Shown one piece after another: positions 9,210-54,570 of a stretch of 64,000 nucleotides of DNA. The notes under the pieces are model-generated. The model saw only the letters and a list, made by a program, of their open reading frames with translations. It had not been told where the DNA came from and ran no database searches. The stretch spans positions 1,179,015-1,243,014 of the forward strand of contig JACQXA010000004.1 in assembly GCA_016208975.1 (NCBI GenBank). Direction: 5' to 3'. Made by a program: the position numbers and the translations under genes. Within the stretch, counting starts at the first letter, position 1. Every line of letters starts with the position of its first letter. The DNA is from Nitrospinota bacterium (GTDB lineage: Bacteria; Nitrospinota_A; UBA7883; JACRLM01).

Positions 9210-9351
9210 ATATGAAATCTTCCTGTCCGCGGATATTGAACACCGGGGGTCCTAACAAATCCCCCGGAAAATTAACAAAATACGCCCGGCCTGATTCAAT
9301 TTAAATAAAACCTACTGTTCTTGTCAAGTATTAATCATGTTAATAAATTTT

Positions 9352-9502
9352 GGTAGTGTCTCAGCTTGAAAGTGCAGGGGAGATTCTTCACTTACGCTCA
9401 GAATGACAATATAAAAGCCGTTGATAACATTGTCATCCTGAGCGAAGCGCCAGCGAAGTGAAGGATCTGTCCATTATTTGAGATTCAAACCGGGACACCA
9501 CC
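9352..9502 (+). mobile_element. MITE copy A (151 bp) with 8-bp target duplication
   Basis: Fold-back element with imperfect terminal inverted repeats GGTAGTGTCTCAGCTTGAA and TTCAAACCGGGACACCACC. The inner arms (AGATTCTTCACTTACGCTCA and the matching TGAGCG...GAAGTGAAGGATC) would form a long hairpin. It is flanked on both sides by TAAATTTT (9344-9351 and 9503-9510). No open reading frame of its own. It sits between the divergent sulfur operon and fliK. The rest of the gap 9210-9678 holds the fliK promoter and no other gene. Confidence 0.9.
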
Positions 9503-9621
9503 TAAATTTTGCCGGACCATACAGGCAACATTTGCCCCGGCAGAACGGGAAAAAACTTTAGTGGAATTTTTTGCAAATAGAAAATGTAAATAAAACAATA
9601 TGTTGCAAACAAGGCCGGTTT

Positions 9622-33408: not shown

Positions 33409-34809
33409 TCAATCCCCAACGGTGATCTGGTAAACGAACTGGTCCCGCTGGATATATACAACTGCGCCGCCCATGGCCTGGCTGTCTATAATGGCGGAAC
33501 GGTAATCGGCCATGGTATTAGTCTGGGTCAAATTTATGCGCCGGAGTACATCCCCCGCCTTCACCCCGGTGCGGGCCAGCAATCTGGCGTTATCAAGTTT
33601 TGTGATAAGAAGCCCCTTGGCGGTGGGAAGCTTAAGCCGGGTGGCGGTTCTGGCGTCCACCGGGGTCAACTGGATGCCCAGCCATTCATAACCTATTTTC
33701 TCGGCCAGCGGCCCGGTCATCTTTGTCCCCCTGATGGAAATCTCCAGCAATTTAGGGGACCGGAACACCGTAAAAGATAATTTGCCTCCTTCAGTCCACG
33801 ACGATAACCTGGAGTAAAGATCGTCCTTATCGGTGATCTTCTTACCGTTCATGGTGGAAATGATGTCCCCAGGCGCAAGCCCGGCTGTGGCGGCGGGGCC
33901 GCCAGCGAATACTTTGGTCACCAGCGCGCCCCCTTTTTCCCGCCAGCCCAACCGGGCGCGAAGGTCGCTGGAAATATCCCGGACATAGAATCCGAAGAAG
34001 GGCCGGGTAACTTTGCCGTAGTTGATAAGGTCGTTGATTATGGCCTTGGCCTTGTCTATGGGGACAGCGAAACCAATGCCCTCCGCGGGCCTGAACACCG
34101 CGGTGGTTATCCCTATAAGCTCGCCGTTGATGTTCACAAGCGCGCCGCCGGAATTACCGGGATTGATGGAAGCGTCAATCTGGAGAAAATCGTGGTACAA
34201 ACGGTCGTTTTCCCCCTGTATGCTCCTGCCCGTGGCGGAAAGCACCCCGGTGGTAACTGTGTGGGTCAAACCAAAGGGGTTGCCAATGGCGATTATGGTT
34301 TCGCCAATCATAAGGTCGCTGGATTTGCCGATAGGCGCCGCTGGCAGAGGGGATTTGGCGTTCACTTTTATCACCGCCAGGTCCAAACTTGGGTCCGTCC
34401 CCACCACTTCGGCGGGGAAAGCCCGGTCGTCCGCCAGGGATACGCGAATCTCCGTGGCTCCGTCTATCACATGGTTGTTGGTAAGGATGTACCCCTCCGG
34501 ACGGATGATAACGCCGGAACCCAGCGATTCCCTTTCCGCAGGCTGAGGAGTAGCCCGGCCAAAAAAATCGCTCAACGGGCTTCTGCCCCGGAAAGGATTG
34601 GCGACCGCGCTCCGTGATGTGCTGATGTTCACCACCGACAGGCCGACCTTTTCCACCGCCTCCACCACAGGGGTCCTGCGGTTTGCGGCCTTAGCTGGAG
34701 AGGGGAGCGCTATTAAAGCAAGGGTGGCAAAGATAAAAACCGGGAGATTCCTGTTAAAAAATCCCCCGGCGCGTTTATTCAAGAATATGGCCCCAAAACC
34801 AGACATCAA
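33409..34809 (-). CDS. HtrA/DegP-type periplasmic serine protease, second of pair
   Basis: 466 residues. A signal-type hydrophobic segment lies at about 20-42 (ending PSPAKA). Trypsin-like domain with His in ILTNNHVIDGA, Asp in DPSLDLAVIKV and Ser in NPGNSGGALVN. Two PDZ domains follow (about 270-360, 370-460). The catalytic triad is intact. It overlaps the end of the upstream homologue by 4 bases, so the two proteases are co-produced, probably for envelope protein quality control. The first PDZ (FFGFYVRDISSDL) is divergent from standard DegP. Confidence 0.92.
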   Translation of the reverse strand: MMSGFGAIFLNKRAGGFFNRNLPVFIFATLALIALPSPAKAANRRTPVVEAVEKVGLSVVNISTSRSAVANPFRGRSPLSDFFGRATPQPAERESLGSGVIIRPEGYILTNNHVIDGATEIRVSLADDRAFPAEVVGTDPSLDLAVIKVNAKSPLPAAPIGKSSDLMIGETIIAIGNPFGLTHTVTTGVLSATGRSIQGENDRLYHDFLQIDASINPGNSGGALVNINGELIGITTAVFRPAEGIGFAVPIDKAKAIINDLINYGKVTRPFFGFYVRDISSDLRARLGWREKGGALVTKVFAGGPAATAGLAPGDIISTMNGKKITDKDDLYSRLSSWTEGGKLSFTVFRSPKLLEISIRGTKMTGPLAEKIGYEWLGIQLTPVDARTATRLKLPTAKGLLITKLDNARLLARTGVKAGDVLRRINLTQTNTMADYRSAIIDSQAMGGAVVYIQRDQFVYQITVGD

Positions 34810-36299
34810 TTTTCCAAAGGTTTCACCACGATGAAAATGGTGCTTTTCCCGCGTTTAACCAGCATCAACACTGGCTCCGCCGGGCCGGATTTGGCCAAGG
34901 CGTTTTTGTAAGACGAAAGATCGTCCACCGGTTGCCGGTTCACCTCGGTGATAATATCTCCGGGGCGGACACCCGCTTCCGCCGCAGGCCCTTGGGGCGC
35001 CACGTTACGGACTAAAACCCCTCTGGAACTTTCGGCGTTGAACCGTTTGGCCAGTTCGGGGGTCAGTTTTTCCACCGTAATGCCAAGATCGTCCTTGGCT
35101 GGAGCTACCGGTTTCTCCTGCTCGGTCTCTTCCGGCATTTCGCCCAAGGCCAGGGTAATGGTTTTTTCAGACCCGTCCCGGATAATTTTCACTTTAGCCT
35201 TTACGCCAGGCTTCAAAGCCCCTACCAGTTTCGGCAAAGCGTCGGAACTTGGCACAGGCTGGCCGTTGAACTCCACAATCACGTCGCCCCGCTTCAGGCC
35301 CGCCGACTCCGCCGGGGATTTTTCAAATACATCCCCCACCAAAGCGCCCTGGGCGGATTTCAACTTTAGCGCCTTCATGAAATCCGGCGTGATCTTCTGT
35401 ATCATCACCCCAAGCCAGCCTCGGGATACTTTGCCCACCTTCAGTTCGCCATAGATGGCTTTCACAGAGTCTATAGGTATGGCGAAACCTATACCTATGT
35501 TGCCTTGGGAGAACCCGCCGGTGAAAATGGCGGAGTTGATACCCACCACCTCGCCAGCCATGTTTAACAGCGGGCCGCCGGAGTTGCCGGGGTTGATGGA
35601 AGCGTCGGTCTGGATAAAATCGTCATAAGGCCCGGCGCCAATTGCCCGGCCCTTGGCGGATACAATGCCCACAGTGACCGACTGGGAGAACCCGAAGGGG
35701 TTGCCTATGGCCATCACCCATTCACCCACCTGAAGAGTGTTGGAGTCACCCAAAGGGATAGTGGGGAGCTTTTTACCCGCGTCCACCTTTATCACCGCGA
35801 TGTCGGTTTTAGGGTCCGACCCGATGACTTTGGCGGAATATTCCGTGTCCGATCCGTTGTGCCCGTCGCCGAAAGTGACGATAATCTCGTCCGCCTGGTC
35901 CACCACATGGCTGTTGGTCAGTATGTAGCCATCCTCCTCCACCACGAAACCGGAACCCAGGCTCTGGCGCACCTGCTCTTTGGGCATGTCTTTATACCAG
36001 GGGAAAAACCTGTCGTAAAATTCCTGCATGCGCTCATCTTCCATTTCAGGAGCCATGCGGGATTTCACTTTCTGTTTTGTAGAGATGTTTACAACCGCCG
36101 GGGTCCTGTTTTTGGCGATATCGGTGAAAACGGTGGTAGGCATATCTTTGCCCTGCGCCACCACTTTGGGCGCCAGGGCGCTGGAGATGGAATCGGATGA
36201 GGAGCCGGATTTGGAGAGCTGGGCTCCGGCCACCGCCCCGATCAATATTAAAATCAAGCCCAAAGAAAACCACCTGGCGTATATTTTGAACTGGCTCAA
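34806..36299 (-). CDS. degP: HtrA/DegP/DegQ-type periplasmic serine protease, first of pair
   Basis: 497 residues. N-terminal membrane/signal segment (about 9-30, WFSLGLILILIGAVAGAQL). Protease domain with His in ILTNSHVVDQA, Asp in DPKTDIAVIKV and Ser in NPGNSGGPLLNMAGEVVG. PDZ1 (about 290-380, GWLGVMIQ) and PDZ2 (about 400-490, VLVRNVAPQGPAAEAGVRPGD). Standard DegP-like layout. In this family it degrades or refolds misfolded periplasmic proteins. First gene of a two-protease operon. Confidence 0.95.
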   Translation of the reverse strand: MSQFKIYARWFSLGLILILIGAVAGAQLSKSGSSSDSISSALAPKVVAQGKDMPTTVFTDIAKNRTPAVVNISTKQKVKSRMAPEMEDERMQEFYDRFFPWYKDMPKEQVRQSLGSGFVVEEDGYILTNSHVVDQADEIIVTFGDGHNGSDTEYSAKVIGSDPKTDIAVIKVDAGKKLPTIPLGDSNTLQVGEWVMAIGNPFGFSQSVTVGIVSAKGRAIGAGPYDDFIQTDASINPGNSGGPLLNMAGEVVGINSAIFTGGFSQGNIGIGFAIPIDSVKAIYGELKVGKVSRGWLGVMIQKITPDFMKALKLKSAQGALVGDVFEKSPAESAGLKRGDVIVEFNGQPVPSSDALPKLVGALKPGVKAKVKIIRDGSEKTITLALGEMPEETEQEKPVAPAKDDLGITVEKLTPELAKRFNAESSRGVLVRNVAPQGPAAEAGVRPGDIITEVNRQPVDDLSSYKNALAKSGPAEPVLMLVKRGKSTIFIVVKPLEN

Positions 36300-36499
36300 A
36301 GTGTGTAACTCCTAACGGAATAGTTGCTCATTCCAACTAAAAAACATCCTTTAGATAAAAAATTATAACACATCGGCACTCGGCTAAAGTTCCCCGGCGG
36401 GAGCTTCCATGCCGGTTTCATTTCAGATTCAGCCAAAGGGTTTGTTTAATTATTAGATGGCCAAAGGTTCATTACGGCGCCCCAAGAAGTCAAAAAAAG

Positions 36500-36650
36500 G
36501 GTAGTGTCCCAGTTTGAAAGTACAGGGGAGATTCTTCACTTACGCTCAGAATGACAATATAAAAGCCGTTGATAACATTGTCATCCTGAGCGAAGCGCAA
36601 GCTAAGTGAAGGATCTGTCTATTATTTGAGATTCAAACTGAGACACCACC
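36500..36650 (+). mobile_element. MITE copy B (151 bp) with 8-bp target duplication
   Basis: Same fold-back element as at 9352, with ends GGTAGTGTCCCAGTTTGAA and TTCAAACTGAGACACCACC, flanked by AAAAAAAG on both sides (36492-36499, 36651-36658). Lies in the gap 36300-36743 between degP and the ribbon-helix-helix gene; nothing else is recognised there. Confidence 0.92.
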
Positions 36651-36743
36651 AAAAAAAGTCTTGACTTGATATTTATTTCTGTCAAAATATTTGTTAATTG
36701 AATGCAATTCTTTTATTTAGTGATATTTCGATAAGCGGGGGGA

Positions 36744-36929
36744 ATGGCAAAAAGCATTGAGCAGGAGAAAAAAGTCCCTGTAACCACCCATTTGTATCAA
36801 CGCCAGATTGATCAACTGAACGAGGTGGCCAGGGAGCTTAAGGTCACGAAGGCTGTCCTTTTCAGGGAGGCCATTGAGCAGTTGCTCAAGCGATACGAAG
36901 AGAAACAGTTGAATATAGGCATCAAATGA
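36744..36929 (+). CDS. Orphan ribbon-helix-helix (CopG-like) protein
   Basis: 61 residues. An N-terminal beta strand (KKVPVTTHLYQRQI) and two helices (IDQLNEVARELKVTKAVLFREAIEQLL) match the RHH DNA-binding fold of CopG/Arc-type regulators and antitoxins. No toxin-like gene follows. Downstream lies a candidate RNA gene and then MITE copy C. It is probably a small transcription regulator or a relic antitoxin. The segment 36651-37210 carrying it lies between two MITEs in the same orientation. Confidence 0.75.
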   Translation: MAKSIEQEKKVPVTTHLYQRQIDQLNEVARELKVTKAVLFREAIEQLLKRYEEKQLNIGIK

Positions 36930-37185: not shown

Positions 37186-37210
37186 ATTGGCGGCGCGTTT
37201 CCTAAAATTG

Positions 37211-37361
37211 GGTTGTGTCCCAGTTTAAAAGTACAGGGGAGATTCTTCACTTACGCTCAGAATGACAATATAAAAGCCGTTGATAACATTGTCATCCTGA
37301 ACGAAGCGCAAGCGAAGCGAAGGATATGTCTATTATTTGAGATTCAAACTGGGACACCACC
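37211..37361 (+). mobile_element. MITE copy C (151 bp) with 8-bp target duplication
   Basis: Ends GGTTGTGTCCCAGTTTAAA and TTCAAACTGGGACACCACC, flanked by TAAAATTG on both sides (37203-37210, 37362-37369). Same orientation as copy B. It lies 90 bases upstream of the multiheme cytochrome start and may separate that gene from, or supply, promoter sequence. Confidence 0.92.
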
Positions 37362-37451
37362 TAAAATTGACTTGCCTTTTAGGGCTATTTCCCGTCTAAT
37401 ACTTTCCAATATTTCAAGTTAGCCACGCGGTTTGTTAGGGGTGGTTTAGGT

Positions 37452-39893
37452 TTGAATTTCTTGCCAGTTTTTGTCCGGCGGTTAACGCTGGCGGTATGTC
37501 TTCTGGCCGTCGCCTTGTCTTCTTCGGCCTTCGCCCAATCTTTGGGTGTGGGCAGGCTTCTCTCCCCGGGCGACCTGGCCAAATCCCACGCCGAGCTGGA
37601 CAGCATAAAAAGATGTACAGACTGTCACGACCTCCAGGGCGGTGTTAACGACACAAAATGCCTGGATTGCCATAAAGAGCTGGCCACCCTCGTATCCGCC
37701 AATAAGGGATATCACGCCCGCGCCAGCGTAAAAGAAAAGAAGTGCCAGAAATGCCACCCGGACCACAAGGGCAAGGCGTATTACATGATCCTGTGGGACG
37801 GGGGCAAGCGGGACTCTTTCAACCATGACACCACCGGTTATGCTTTAAAAGAGAAGCACCGGATATCCGACTGCGAAAAATGCCATAACAAAAAGACCGC
37901 CAAAGGCTCCGTCACCTACCTGGGGCTATCAAGGGAATGCGTATCCTGCCATAAGGATGTCCATCAGAAAACCCTTGGGGAAAAATGCGCCGACTGCCAT
38001 GTGAATTTCCACTCTTGGAAAGGGCTGGACGTAAAGTTCGACCATGACAAGCAGGCCAAATATCCGCTGGAGGGGAAGCATCAGCGCATCACCTGCGACA
38101 AATGCCACCCGAAACGGGCAAAGGACGAGGCGCTCTTCAAGGTGGCCGGGTTCGAGCGGTGCGTCACCTGTCACAAGAAAGAAGACGTTCATAAGAACGC
38201 CTTGGGCGACCGGTGCGAGAACTGCCATTACGCCGATGACTGGAAGAGGATAAAGTTCAACCACGACAAGGCCAGGTTCAGGTTAAAAGGCAAACATGGC
38301 GACGTTAAGTGCGAGAAGTGCCATCCCGGCGGCGCAAAGGCCGGGTTCAAGGTGGCCAAGTTCGACGCCTGCGGTACCACCGATTGTCACGACACCGAGG
38401 CCCGCGGCCTGGTTCATGGGGAGCAGTTCAAGGGCCGCAGGTGCGAAGAGTGCCACAACGAGACCACATGGAAGCCGAGCCTGTTCAAGCATGAAGACCC
38501 CGCATATAAGGGTTACAAGCTCCGGGGCAAGCACGCCAGGGAAGAATGCGCCGAATGTCACAGGGCCACTTCCGCCACATCCAAATACAAGGGTGGAACG
38601 CCGGTGGCGTTGTTCAAACCCATAGAGTCTTCCCGGTGCGACAATGCCGGATGTCACGACATACCCAAACGGGGCGGGAAAGTTCATGGCGACCAGTTCA
38701 AGGGCCGCAGGTGCGAAGAGTGCCACAACGAGACCACTTGGAAGCCGAGCCTGTTCAAGCATGAAGACCCCGCTTACAAAGGCTACAAACTGGAAGCGGG
38801 CCACGCCAATGTCAAGTGCGAGAAGTGCCATGTGAAGAACACGGCTGGCGTGGTGGTGTTCAAGCCGATAGACACCAGGAGGTGCGACACCCCTGCCTGC
38901 CACGACAAACCGGAACGGGGCGCCATCCACGGCAGGCAGTTCGAAGGGGTCTCGTGCGACCAGTGCCATACGGCGAAAAACTGGAAGCCCGCCACTTTCA
39001 GCCACGAAAGCCCGTCGTATCGCGGCTTCCGGCTGGAGGGCAGGCACAAAGACGTAAAGTGCGAAAAATGCCATAAGAAAGACGAGTCCACCGTTCCAAG
39101 GTACGACGATAAGAGCTGGCCGCAGGTCCACTACAAACCCATCGGGTACGACCGGTGCGACACCAGCGCGTGCCATCCGGACCCGCACAAGAGGCTGTTC
39201 GTTCCCCGGCGGTGCGACGAGTGCCACGTAGCCGCCGACTGGAAGAACATGTCCGCCGTGTTCGACCATACGCTGGACACGCATTTCCCCCTGACGGGAA
39301 AACACAAAACCGCCAAGTGCGACGAGTGCCACAAGAACAAGACATGGAAGCCGGTGGCCATGGATTGCCTGGCCTGTCACAAGAAAGACGACAAGCATAA
39401 AGGCAAGCTGGGCGCGTTGTGCGAGGAATGCCACACCACCGCCACATGGAGCCCCAAAGTGGCCGCCCATGAGCGGACCGGTTTCCCGCTGACCGAGACC
39501 CATGCCCAGATGGTTTGCGCCGATTGCCACACCAAGGGCAAAGGGGATTTCTCGGGGTTGAGCCCGGACTGTCAGCAGTGCCATACCGACCCGCATTTGA
39601 ACCAGATGGGAAGGCTTTGCAACGACTGTCACACCATGCGCAACTGGGAACCCATGAAGTTCAAACATAATTTGACTGGATTCCGGCTGGAAGGGGCCCA
39701 CAAATACCAGCCCTGCGGCAACTGCCACCAGGGCAGGGTGTACAGGGTGATACCCGGCGATTGTTATAACTGTCACGTGAAAGATTTCATCAGTTCCTCC
39801 GCGGTGGCGTTCCATAAGGTATTCAACCCGTCCATGGATCCCAACTGTGCCGGGTGCCATACCCAGTTCACATGGAGCTTGCCGCGCCGATGA
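37452..39893 (+). CDS. Periplasmic 30-heme c-type cytochrome
   Basis: 813 residues, TTG start; N-terminal signal peptide (RRLTLAVCLLAVALSSSAFA). I count 30 haem-binding motifs: 26 CxxCH and four of the form CxxxxCH (CGTTDCH, CDNAGCH, CDTPACH, CDTSACH). The chain is built of repeated units of about 45 residues pairing a CEKCH-type site with a KHxxxK/W-K-xxFxH pattern whose extra histidines can act as distal ligands. A 90-residue unit with CEECHNETTWKPSLFKHED is duplicated almost exactly at DNA level (38412-38513 and 38682-38783). The next gene is a beta-barrel overlapping by 4 bases. The pair looks like an electron conduit across periplasm and outer membrane. Confidence 0.93.
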   Translation: MNFLPVFVRRLTLAVCLLAVALSSSAFAQSLGVGRLLSPGDLAKSHAELDSIKRCTDCHDLQGGVNDTKCLDCHKELATLVSANKGYHARASVKEKKCQKCHPDHKGKAYYMILWDGGKRDSFNHDTTGYALKEKHRISDCEKCHNKKTAKGSVTYLGLSRECVSCHKDVHQKTLGEKCADCHVNFHSWKGLDVKFDHDKQAKYPLEGKHQRITCDKCHPKRAKDEALFKVAGFERCVTCHKKEDVHKNALGDRCENCHYADDWKRIKFNHDKARFRLKGKHGDVKCEKCHPGGAKAGFKVAKFDACGTTDCHDTEARGLVHGEQFKGRRCEECHNETTWKPSLFKHEDPAYKGYKLRGKHAREECAECHRATSATSKYKGGTPVALFKPIESSRCDNAGCHDIPKRGGKVHGDQFKGRRCEECHNETTWKPSLFKHEDPAYKGYKLEAGHANVKCEKCHVKNTAGVVVFKPIDTRRCDTPACHDKPERGAIHGRQFEGVSCDQCHTAKNWKPATFSHESPSYRGFRLEGRHKDVKCEKCHKKDESTVPRYDDKSWPQVHYKPIGYDRCDTSACHPDPHKRLFVPRRCDECHVAADWKNMSAVFDHTLDTHFPLTGKHKTAKCDECHKNKTWKPVAMDCLACHKKDDKHKGKLGALCEECHTTATWSPKVAAHERTGFPLTETHAQMVCADCHTKGKGDFSGLSPDCQQCHTDPHLNQMGRLCNDCHTMRNWEPMKFKHNLTGFRLEGAHKYQPCGNCHQGRVYRVIPGDCYNCHVKDFISSSAVAFHKVFNPSMDPNCAGCHTQFTWSLPRR

Positions 39894-41200
39894 GTTTTCG
39901 TTATCTGGCAAGAACGGCGCTGATAATAGCGGTCTTGGGGCTGGCCCTTTCGGAGCCCGCCAGCGCCCAGCGGGACGACCATGGCCGTTTCGCCATCGGC
40001 CATATCAATATAGACGACACCGCCTCCGCCGGTGATTTCAGCGCCACCACGCTATTCTACCGTTACATCGCCGACAATTTCATGGGGTGGGAAAACCTGT
40101 CGTTCAATCTGGACGGCAACACCCGGTTCTCCAACCAGGACTATAACCACGACATCCCCGGCGGCAGGGTGAGCATGGCCAACGTGAAGTTGAAAAAACT
40201 TATGGGCCATGTGGACCTTACCCTGGGCCGGTCTTTTGTGGAGGAGTTTGTATCCGAATCGGTGGACGGGGTGGATGTGAAATATTGGCTGGACAACAAG
40301 ACCGGCGCGGGGGTTTTCGGCGGTTTGCGGCCCGACCCGTATAAAGACAGCGTCAACGCCGATTACAACACCGTGGGCGGATACCTGTTCACCCGCACCG
40401 ACGAGCTGGGCCTGTCCGCCGGGTACGCATACGACACATACAAAGGCAAGAAAGACCGGGAGCGGATAAACGGCGTTTTCTACATCATGCCGTCCATAGA
40501 GAACCTGCATTTCCAGATGTCCGCCGATGTGGACAATATCGATGAAGAAGCCGACGAAGAACACCCTGCCAAACAGGGATGGGAAGTAACCAACCTGTTG
40601 GCCCATTTCAACTGGCGGCCCGTCCGGCGGCTGGTATTGTCCGCCACCTATAACGAGTTCCGCGCCATTAACCGGGAAGCCTCGCATTTGGAACAGCGGA
40701 TTGAAATGCTGGAAGACAAATACACCGTTGCCCGTGTGCGGGCCGAGGGGAGCCTGGGCAAGAGCTTTTATATCTACGGCGGCGTGGATCAACGCTTCCG
40801 CGAGGCCGATTCCGCCAACGCCACACAGTTATACGCCGGGTTGCGCGACAGCGATTTTGTGTTAGGCACGCGGTGGGACTTGCGCTATTCGGATCTGGAT
40901 TATTTCACCTCCAAGGTCAAGGCCGTTTACGGCATGCTGGGTGTTACCGTTGGCGAGTCGTTCAACGTGGAAGGCTCCGCCACGTGGCTGAAGAACACCC
41001 AGGAGGGGCAGATGGGCGACCTGGAACAGTGGGTGTACGACGTGACGCTGGACTATTGGATAACAAAGAACATCTACGCCAACCTCATGTGGCAGTACTC
41101 TTCCGAGAAGTATCTGGATATAAACTCCATCTACGCCACCCGGTTCGCCGACAACTTCACCACCACCACACTGTACGGCCAGGTGGGTTATCGGTTCTGA
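39890..41200 (+). CDS. Outer-membrane beta-barrel protein partner of the 30-heme cytochrome
   Basis: 436 residues from the ATG at 39890, overlapping the cytochrome stop (ATGA). Signal peptide (YLARTALIIAVLGLALSEPASA), then alternating amphipathic strands throughout (for example LSFNLDGNTRF, GVFGGLRPDP, RLVLSATYNEF, FYIYGGVDQRF) and a C-terminal strand ending in Phe (YGQVGYRF), the recognition signal for barrel assembly. No haem motif. Comparable in role, not visibly in sequence, to MtrB-type porins that sheathe cytochromes in the outer membrane. Role inferred from gene coupling. Confidence 0.82.
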   Translation: MSFRYLARTALIIAVLGLALSEPASAQRDDHGRFAIGHINIDDTASAGDFSATTLFYRYIADNFMGWENLSFNLDGNTRFSNQDYNHDIPGGRVSMANVKLKKLMGHVDLTLGRSFVEEFVSESVDGVDVKYWLDNKTGAGVFGGLRPDPYKDSVNADYNTVGGYLFTRTDELGLSAGYAYDTYKGKKDRERINGVFYIMPSIENLHFQMSADVDNIDEEADEEHPAKQGWEVTNLLAHFNWRPVRRLVLSATYNEFRAINREASHLEQRIEMLEDKYTVARVRAEGSLGKSFYIYGGVDQRFREADSANATQLYAGLRDSDFVLGTRWDLRYSDLDYFTSKVKAVYGMLGVTVGESFNVEGSATWLKNTQEGQMGDLEQWVYDVTLDYWITKNIYANLMWQYSSEKYLDINSIYATRFADNFTTTTLYGQVGYRF

Positions 41201-42183
41201 TTTCGGCCAACCCGGGGTTTTTGAGGCGCCTCCTCCACCTCCCCCACATCTTTCAGCTCTCCGGCCAGGTAGGTTTTCAACCGTTTCATCAACCGTTCCT
41301 CGGCCTGCCGTATGGCTTCGCGGGTGACGCCGTGTTTTTCGCCGATTTCCCGTAACGTGAGGGGATTATCGGAAAGCAGGCGATGCTCCAAAAGGTCTTT
41401 GTCCACCGGGCGCAGGGTCTGTTTGAACTTATCAATGGCGGCGTGGAACTTTTCCATCACCTGGCGGTTGGCCAGTTCCTCGGAAACGTCCGCCGACTGG
41501 CTGGCTACGGTTTCTCCCAGCTCCCTCTTGCCCTCGTCATCCACCGGCTGGTTCAGCGACGCGTCTGAAACGCCCAGGCTCTGCTGGATGTCTATAACAT
41601 CCTGCTCGGTGGCGCCAAACCGTTCCGCCAATAGCTTGGGCCCGGCCTCAATACCCCCTTCTTCCAGCTGGGCCTGTAACTCCCGCAGGTTGTAGAGCAG
41701 TTTGCGCCGCACGTTGGTGGTGCCAACTTTCACAAGGCGCCAGTTGTCCAACAGATATTTTAAAATGTAGGCGCGAATCCAGTAGGAGGCGTAGGTGGAA
41801 AGCCGGGCTCCCCGGAACGGATCAAACTTCCTTATGGCGCGCAGAAGCCCATAATTGCCCTCCTGAATCAGATCCATCATGTTCTGGAACTGCGAACGGA
41901 ACTCGTACGATATTTTGACCACCAGCATGAGGTTGGAAGTAACCAGCCGGAACGCCGCGTCCTTATCGCCCGTTTCACGGAACCGTTCGGCCAGCTCCAG
42001 CTCTTCTTCCCGGGTGAGGGCCGGGTATTGTTTTATCTTCTGGATGTAGATTTGGAGCGGGTCGGCGGGCGCCAGCGCTCCATAGTCCGCCCCCGGCACA
42101 GATGGCTTTGAAGCTTTCTCAAAACCATTGGGAGACACCTCTTCCCGGGGCGAGTCTTCTTCCAAGTCGTATATTTCGGCCAT
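41188..42183 (-). CDS. rpoH: RpoH-like (sigma-32 family) RNA polymerase sigma factor
   Basis: 331 residues from the ATG at 42183 (a TTG two codons upstream is possible). Region 1.2/2 has QKIKQYPALTREEELELAERF, NLMLVVKIS and MDLIQEGNYGLLRAIRKFDP, then LSTYASYWIRAYILKYLLDN. Region 4 helix-turn-helix is LTLREIGEKHGVTREAIRQAEERL. Typical of the heat-shock type group. The first 40 residues are acidic and variable. Its 3' end overlaps the convergent beta-barrel gene by 13 bases. Could control envelope/heat-stress genes such as the HtrA pair; that link is inference. Confidence 0.9.
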   Translation of the reverse strand: MAEIYDLEEDSPREEVSPNGFEKASKPSVPGADYGALAPADPLQIYIQKIKQYPALTREEELELAERFRETGDKDAAFRLVTSNLMLVVKISYEFRSQFQNMMDLIQEGNYGLLRAIRKFDPFRGARLSTYASYWIRAYILKYLLDNWRLVKVGTTNVRRKLLYNLRELQAQLEEGGIEAGPKLLAERFGATEQDVIDIQQSLGVSDASLNQPVDDEGKRELGETVASQSADVSEELANRQVMEKFHAAIDKFKQTLRPVDKDLLEHRLLSDNPLTLREIGEKHGVTREAIRQAEERLMKRLKTYLAGELKDVGEVEEAPQKPRVGRNQNR

Positions 42184-42323
42184 AGCCAAATTATTTTAAC
42201 ATGCCCCAAAAACCGTTGGAAAAATGACGCCAGCCCGGAAAAATAGGCCTACCCCGTCAATTTATCCACTCGCTCAATTAATGTATATGCTTACTTTACA
42301 ACTGGATATGTTAGCCCGATGTG

Positions 42324-54346: not shown

Positions 54347-54420
54347 AAGGAAGTTCTCTGTTTTTAATTGAAATTAGACTATAAATTGCCTTAATACCCT
54401 CTGGCAAGCCTCGTTTTTTC

Positions 54421-54570
54421 GGTGGTGTCCCAGTTTGAATCCCAAATAATAGACAGATCCTTCACTTCGCTTGCGCTTCGTTCAGGATGACAATGTTATC
54501 AACGGCTTTTATATTGTCATCCTGAGCGTAAGTGAAGAATCTCCCCTGTACTTCAAACTGGGACACTACC
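54421..54570 (-). mobile_element. MITE copy D (150 bp), inverted, with 8-bp target duplication
   Basis: Reverse orientation to the other four copies: ends GGTGGTGTCCCAGTTTGAA and TTCAAACTGGGACACTACC, flanked by GTTTTTTC on both sides (54413-54420, 54571-54578). Lies 109 bases before the 6S RNA gene. Confidence 0.92.

Follow-up and report, generated by a model that had tools for sequence, protein, structure and literature searches.

The adjacent genes at positions 37452 to 41200 of the window, the 64,000-nucleotide stretch of a Nitrospinota genome that was analysed here, probably encode a conduit of the PCC3 superfamily for electron transfer across the outer membrane, in which a 30-haem cytochrome would reach from an outer-membrane beta-barrel into the periplasm and a lipoprotein cytochrome encoded elsewhere in the genome is the probable extracellular partner. 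Judged from its sequence, the pair appears to be a slimmed-down relative of PCC3 that probably serves to export or take up electrons. PCC3 is a porin-cytochrome cluster (He et al. 2017, PMC5566968; Gallionellaceae survey, PMC10734462) and represents a known but putative kind of conduit. It has been reported in Alpha-, Beta- and Gammaproteobacteria (PMC5566968, PMC10734462), and the cluster also encodes an extracellular multihaem cytochrome (MHC) and an inner-membrane protein (PMC5566968). No account of PCC3 in Nitrospinota was found in the literature searched.

The upstream gene (37452..39893, forward strand) runs from a TTG start at 37452 to a TGA stop at 39893 and encodes a secreted c-type cytochrome of 813 residues, a homolog of the PCC3 periplasmic MHC. 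Its signal peptide, MNFLPVFVRRLTLAVCLLAVALSSSAFA (37452..37535), was assigned by reading of the sequence and contains Cys16, the sole cysteine of the protein that is not part of a haem motif. A motif count gave 26 CxxCH and four CxxxxCH sites, and no CxxxCH or CxxCK, across the 813 residues, which bears out the 30 haem motifs, four of them CxxxxCH, that the sequence-only reading had counted in this secreted protein. Composition-preserving shuffles held 0.73 motifs on average and five at most (n = 2000), and a chance origin of the 30 motifs was rejected on that basis. The chain begins with a conserved three-haem module (VGRLLSPGDLAKSH...CHPDHKG..., 37548..37847), which is the family signature for finding relatives, and continues with about nine c7-like triheme repeats at a spacing of about 26 residues per haem. 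Nine stretches matched the Pfam model Cytochrome_C7 (PF14522, E 4.7e-34), which identifies the repeats as tandem c7 triheme modules.

In a 16-row alignment of relatives, all 30 motif histidines were conserved where aligned, and 29 of the 33 non-motif histidines were conserved in at least 80% of the rows, most of them in every row; a thirtieth conserved non-motif histidine, H788, was present in 11 of 15 rows. The 29 to 30 conserved distal histidines for 30 haems fit bis-His coordination throughout, which suggests a wire rather than an enzyme, and with this number of ligands no haem would be obviously free for catalysis. One could still regard the protein as a multihaem enzyme (e.g., a nitrite, tetrathionate or hydroxylamine oxidoreductase) that happens to be followed by an unrelated barrel gene, but its multihaem nature is all that speaks for this. 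The protein lacks CxxCK, has about one conserved distal histidine for each haem, is built of c7 repeats, matches no enzyme family and has a conserved barrel partner. An enzymatic role is therefore hardly credible, and we rejected it. An AlphaFold2 model of the cytochrome alone was of low confidence (pLDDT 54.5, pTM 0.26) and was set aside.

The downstream gene (39890..41200, forward strand) encodes a predicted outer-membrane beta-barrel of 436 residues. Its mechanical open reading frame opens earlier, at GTG 39854, but the start is best taken as ATG 39890, which yields a signal ending in ...LGLALSEPASA-Q and a 4-base ATGA overlap with the cytochrome stop. The signal peptide, MSFRYLARTALIIAVLGLALSEPASA (39890..39967), was likewise assigned by reading and is a helix (residues 3-19) in the model, and the protein ends in ...GYRF, a C-terminal YRF. 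The earlier description of a signal-bearing barrel that ends in Phe and overlaps the cytochrome gene by four bases holds with the ATG 39890 start. An AlphaFold2 model built on an 18-row alignment had 22 strands at a mean pLDDT of 82.8. A Foldseek search of this model against the PDB returned generic large barrels and pores only, the best being the usher FimD (TM 0.52), and MtrB was not found among the top 50 matches. No porin, MtrB or PioB model of Pfam or NCBIfam matched the barrel up to E 1, and a scan with the barrel found no relatives among viral contigs.

The kinship with PCC3 is most direct for the cytochrome. Two contigs found by a search with the cytochrome N-terminal module, one from Gallionella and one from Nitrosomonadales, encode an inner-membrane protein, a cytochrome of 24 or 27 haems, respectively, a second one of 13 or 12 haems, and a porin of about 743 residues; these loci were called PCC3 from the arrangement of their genes and not from locus tags. 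Over 751 residues, the window cytochrome is 33% identical to the 27-haem MHC of Nitrosomonadales L122 (E 6e-105) and 34% identical over 679 residues to the MHC of Gallionella L119 (E 1e-85). Its 30 haems place it with the large periplasmic MHCs (about 20 or more haems) that mark PCC3, the Gallionellaceae proteins having 21-27 (PMC10734462).

For the barrel, a narrow family profile matched the PCC3 porins with a probability of 6%, and a profile extended to about 70 rows did so with a probability of 97.7% (E 1.3e-12; reversed control, 6.6%), the match covering the C-terminal part of the porins (columns 344-711 of 713). When single porin sequences were compared with the barrel profile, five of six PCC3 porins gave probabilities of 52-94% and L135 only 5%; a classical porin and a Cyc2-like barrel, included as controls, gave 4% and 0.8%. 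The barrel beside the cytochrome is a PCC3-kind porin as a remote homolog only; PCC3 porins have an N-terminal extension of about 200-350 residues, and the 436-residue window barrel has none. By these comparisons it probably belongs to the PCC3 porin family as a bare barrel. The window cluster thus resembles PCC3 in that a large outer-membrane barrel accompanies a homologous periplasmic MHC, itself large and built of c7 repeats, and it differs in lacking both the extracellular MHC and the inner-membrane protein, and in its lineage, which is Nitrospinota rather than proteobacterial.

The pair had earlier been likened to MtrA-type conduits, a comparison that holds for the design and fails for the kinship. 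Like MtrAB, MtoAB and PioAB, the window pair consists of a periplasmic multihaem cytochrome plus a barrel, but it has three times the haems, c7 repeats and no match to MtrB_PioB. If it were a conduit of the MtrAB/DmsEF type whose MtrA had become larger, the general architecture would be explained, as would a weak match of the cytochrome to the MtrA/DmsE model TIGR03508. That match, however, scores 22.3 bits against a cut-off of 192.2, the barrel has no Pfam MtrB_PioB match and is predicted to have 22 strands rather than the 26 of MtrB, and the sequence relatives of the pair are of PCC3 type. A conduit of this kind is very improbable, and we rejected membership in MtrAB on the sub-threshold TIGR03508 score, the missing MtrB_PioB match and the PCC3-type relatives. 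That 30 haems is three times the number in MtrA is correct, but the number is not an oddity within its own family, where 18 to 67 haems are ordinary. Tandem c7 triheme modules also occur in GSU1996, the Geobacter c7 'nanowire' cytochrome, which has 12 haems, is roughly 12 nm long and, to our knowledge, has no barrel partner. The match of GSU1996 (PDB 3ov0) to residues 713-775 of the window cytochrome is weak (E 0.02).

The pairing is strictly conserved among the relatives of the window genome. The barrel was found in 20 of the 24 Nitrospinota genomes examined, and the gene directly upstream of it was a cytochrome of the same family in every one of the 18 relatives with a readable neighbour. 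An unlinked barrel in relatives, which the sequence-only reading had named as evidence against a conduit, was thus not encountered. These upstream cytochromes have 18-43 haems, leaving aside open reading frames that are split or cut by contig ends. The cytochrome N-terminus was detected in 18 of the 20 barrel-bearing genomes, and in the two exceptions (G007 and G021) the contigs begin inside the cytochrome gene; the cytochrome is likewise missing from G001, G006 and G010, the three relatives that lack the barrel. The start codon of the barrel gene lies at or near the cytochrome stop in relatives, with overlap being frequent. In a tree of the N-terminal modules, the window cytochrome clusters with L062, L063 and L071, all from Nitrospinota, within a supported group of 14 rows, nearly all of them from this phylum.

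The same gene pair, for which a search in other genomes had been proposed, is also present outside the phylum. A profile search of genome contigs with the cytochrome N-terminal module as the query (alignment rows 40-58% identical to the window row) gave 496 candidate relatives. A barrel of the same family was found in 50 of 75 named loci, some of them Nitrospinota, and nearly always directly beside the cytochrome; these loci were chosen by their cytochrome and say nothing about barrels that lack such a partner. By contig label, the loci with this pairing include groundwater Deltaproteobacteria, Nitrospirota, Bdellovibrionota and Myxococcota, and the haem counts reach 67. In the groundwater Deltaproteobacteria and Nitrospirota contigs, the gene order is inner-membrane protein, cytochrome of 40-67 haems and barrel of about 410 residues. 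The cytochromes of L102, L097 and L089 have 67, 63 and 65 haem motifs, respectively, in single chains of 1494-1576 residues, each encoded after the inner-membrane protein gene and directly before that of a 409-411-residue barrel. Bdellovibrionota loci L098, L105, L111, L113, L115, L118, L123 and L129 have the pair reversed, with the barrel gene preceding that of a 30-haem cytochrome and the two overlapping by 1-4 bases.

The sequence-only reading had remarked on the lack of a third, extracellular cytochrome beside the pair. This is correct for the locus, as no other multihaem gene was seen in the 20-kb surroundings, but not for the genome. Four relatives (L045, L046, L048 and L052) encode a lipoprotein cytochrome of 8-12 haems directly upstream of the pair, and the window genome encodes, at C4:1329030-1329953 and thus about 111 kb from the pair, a predicted lipoprotein cytochrome that is 52% identical to the L045 protein. 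This protein is the probable extracellular partner of the pair. The residue after its lipidated cysteine is Asp, which counts against such a role; Asp at this position favours the inner membrane in E. coli, a rule that may not hold here. The arrangement in the relatives is the same as that of the Geobacter OmaB-OmbB-OmcB and ExtABCD systems, in which a barrel is combined with a periplasmic MHC and a surface lipoprotein MHC, the likeness being one of layout only. Known members of those systems have 5-12 haems.

An inner-membrane partner is less apparent. The PCC3 inner-membrane protein has five transmembrane segments together with SGxxG and WX3HX13H motifs (PMC5566968), and its profile found matches in many relatives in the class (E 1e-65 to 1e-90), some of them 1.5-5 kb from the pair. 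In the window genome, the same profile search gave only a partial match (E 4.7e-4, C4:1446461). The protein with this weak match, a membrane protein of 271 residues, is encoded in a cluster with an 11-haem cytochrome and a cNMP-binding/4Fe-4S protein (L145:5636-9231, which is G000 C4 about 1443.6-1447.2 kb), an arrangement reminiscent of PCC4. A candidate for the entry point at the inner membrane is a NapC-type tetrahaem protein at C4:600 kb. It is encoded with a single-haem protein and a monohaem cytochrome (L146:2797-5094, or G000 C4 about 598.8-601.1 kb). The single-haem protein has an N-terminal CFTCHTAFPRLN motif and a barrel-like tail, looks Cyc2-like by eye and matched nothing in Pfam and NCBIfam; the cluster is possibly a second outer-membrane electron route.

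As to how the two proteins might work together, we infer that the 22-strand barrel would sit in the outer membrane, that one end of the all-bis-His cytochrome would plug or dock into it, and that the remaining c7-type triheme modules would stretch into the periplasm, in principle as far as electron donors or acceptors of the inner membrane and with no need for a soluble shuttle. Extrapolating from GSU1996, 30 haems could span up to about 30 nm, which would be enough for the membrane plus the periplasm. Electrons might flow in either direction, as in Fe or Mn oxidation or in mineral reduction. The window genome encodes haem-copper oxidases, and inward electron flow to O2 is therefore possible. 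A wire across the periplasm has already been proposed for PCC3 (PMC5566968, PMC10734462).

The two-component conduit that was suggested from the sequence gains support from the strict linkage of the genes, their co-occurrence across the class, the large predicted barrel and the all-bis-His cytochrome. Counting against a conduit are the absence of the PCC3 inner-membrane protein apart from the weak partial match, the low-confidence cytochrome model and the putative status of PCC3, together with the finding that both PCC3 copies of Sideroxydans ES-1 are down-regulated on Fe(II) (PMC8788666). Expression of PCC3 in Sideroxydans has also been reported to be above the mean, with the copies differing (PMC12442390).

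An alternative is that the two proteins cooperate with no physical trans-membrane complex, the cytochrome acting as a periplasmic electron store or soluble wire and the barrel as a channel that admits small redox substrates, for example soluble Fe(II), Mn(II) or a chelate. Thirty bis-His haems could hold charge, as in the capacitor function proposed for the many haems of PCC3 (PMC10734462), and a barrel that no porin or MtrB model recognises and whose structural matches are generic pores would fit such a channel. The tight one-to-one linkage across several phyla is harder to reconcile with this arrangement, and both parts are homologous to PCC3, where a complex is the expected arrangement; we consider it unlikely. 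Within the preferred reading of the pair as a trans-outer-membrane conduit, a more specific and tentative idea is that of a minimal one-protein wire, in which a bare 22-strand barrel and a single cytochrome would connect the exterior of the cell with the inner membrane without a soluble shuttle and, in some members, without a dedicated inner-membrane partner, the length being tuned by the addition of c7 modules (18 to 67 haems). This may be so, although we would sooner doubt it than assume it.

PCC3 itself, its high haem number and the idea that it spans the periplasm have already been published. What is new here is the two-gene form with a bare barrel, its strict conservation in Nitrospinota and its occurrence farther afield, with as many as 67 haems. 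Also new are the probable lipoprotein partner encoded apart from the pair and the remote homology of the barrel to the PCC3 porin. With these findings, the range of PCC3-type conduits, which are known from iron oxidisers and other proteobacteria, comes to include Nitrospinota. The two-gene form offers a minimal system in which to test whether a single cytochrome bridges the periplasm. Profiles of the barrel and of the cytochrome N-terminus can be used as metagenome markers for such conduits.

The surroundings of the pair include two tandem genes for DegP/HtrA-type proteases (Trypsin_2 plus PDZ) upstream on the minus strand (33409-36299) and, also on the minus strand, a gene for a sigma-70-type factor (41188-42189) that is convergent with the barrel gene and overlaps its last 13 bases (41188-41200). 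Rfam gave no match in the region of the pair. A dispersed repeat of about 160-175 nt occurs in the window at 36493-36667 and 37204-37378, and also at about 9345-9509 and 54416-54570, with at least 40 good matches (92-97% identity) in the genome. Between the first two copies lies a forward-strand open reading frame for 61 residues (36744-36929) that by eye resembles a ribbon-helix-helix regulator. Only 73 bp separate the end of one repeat copy from the start codon of the cytochrome gene, and this copy may carry or disturb the promoter.
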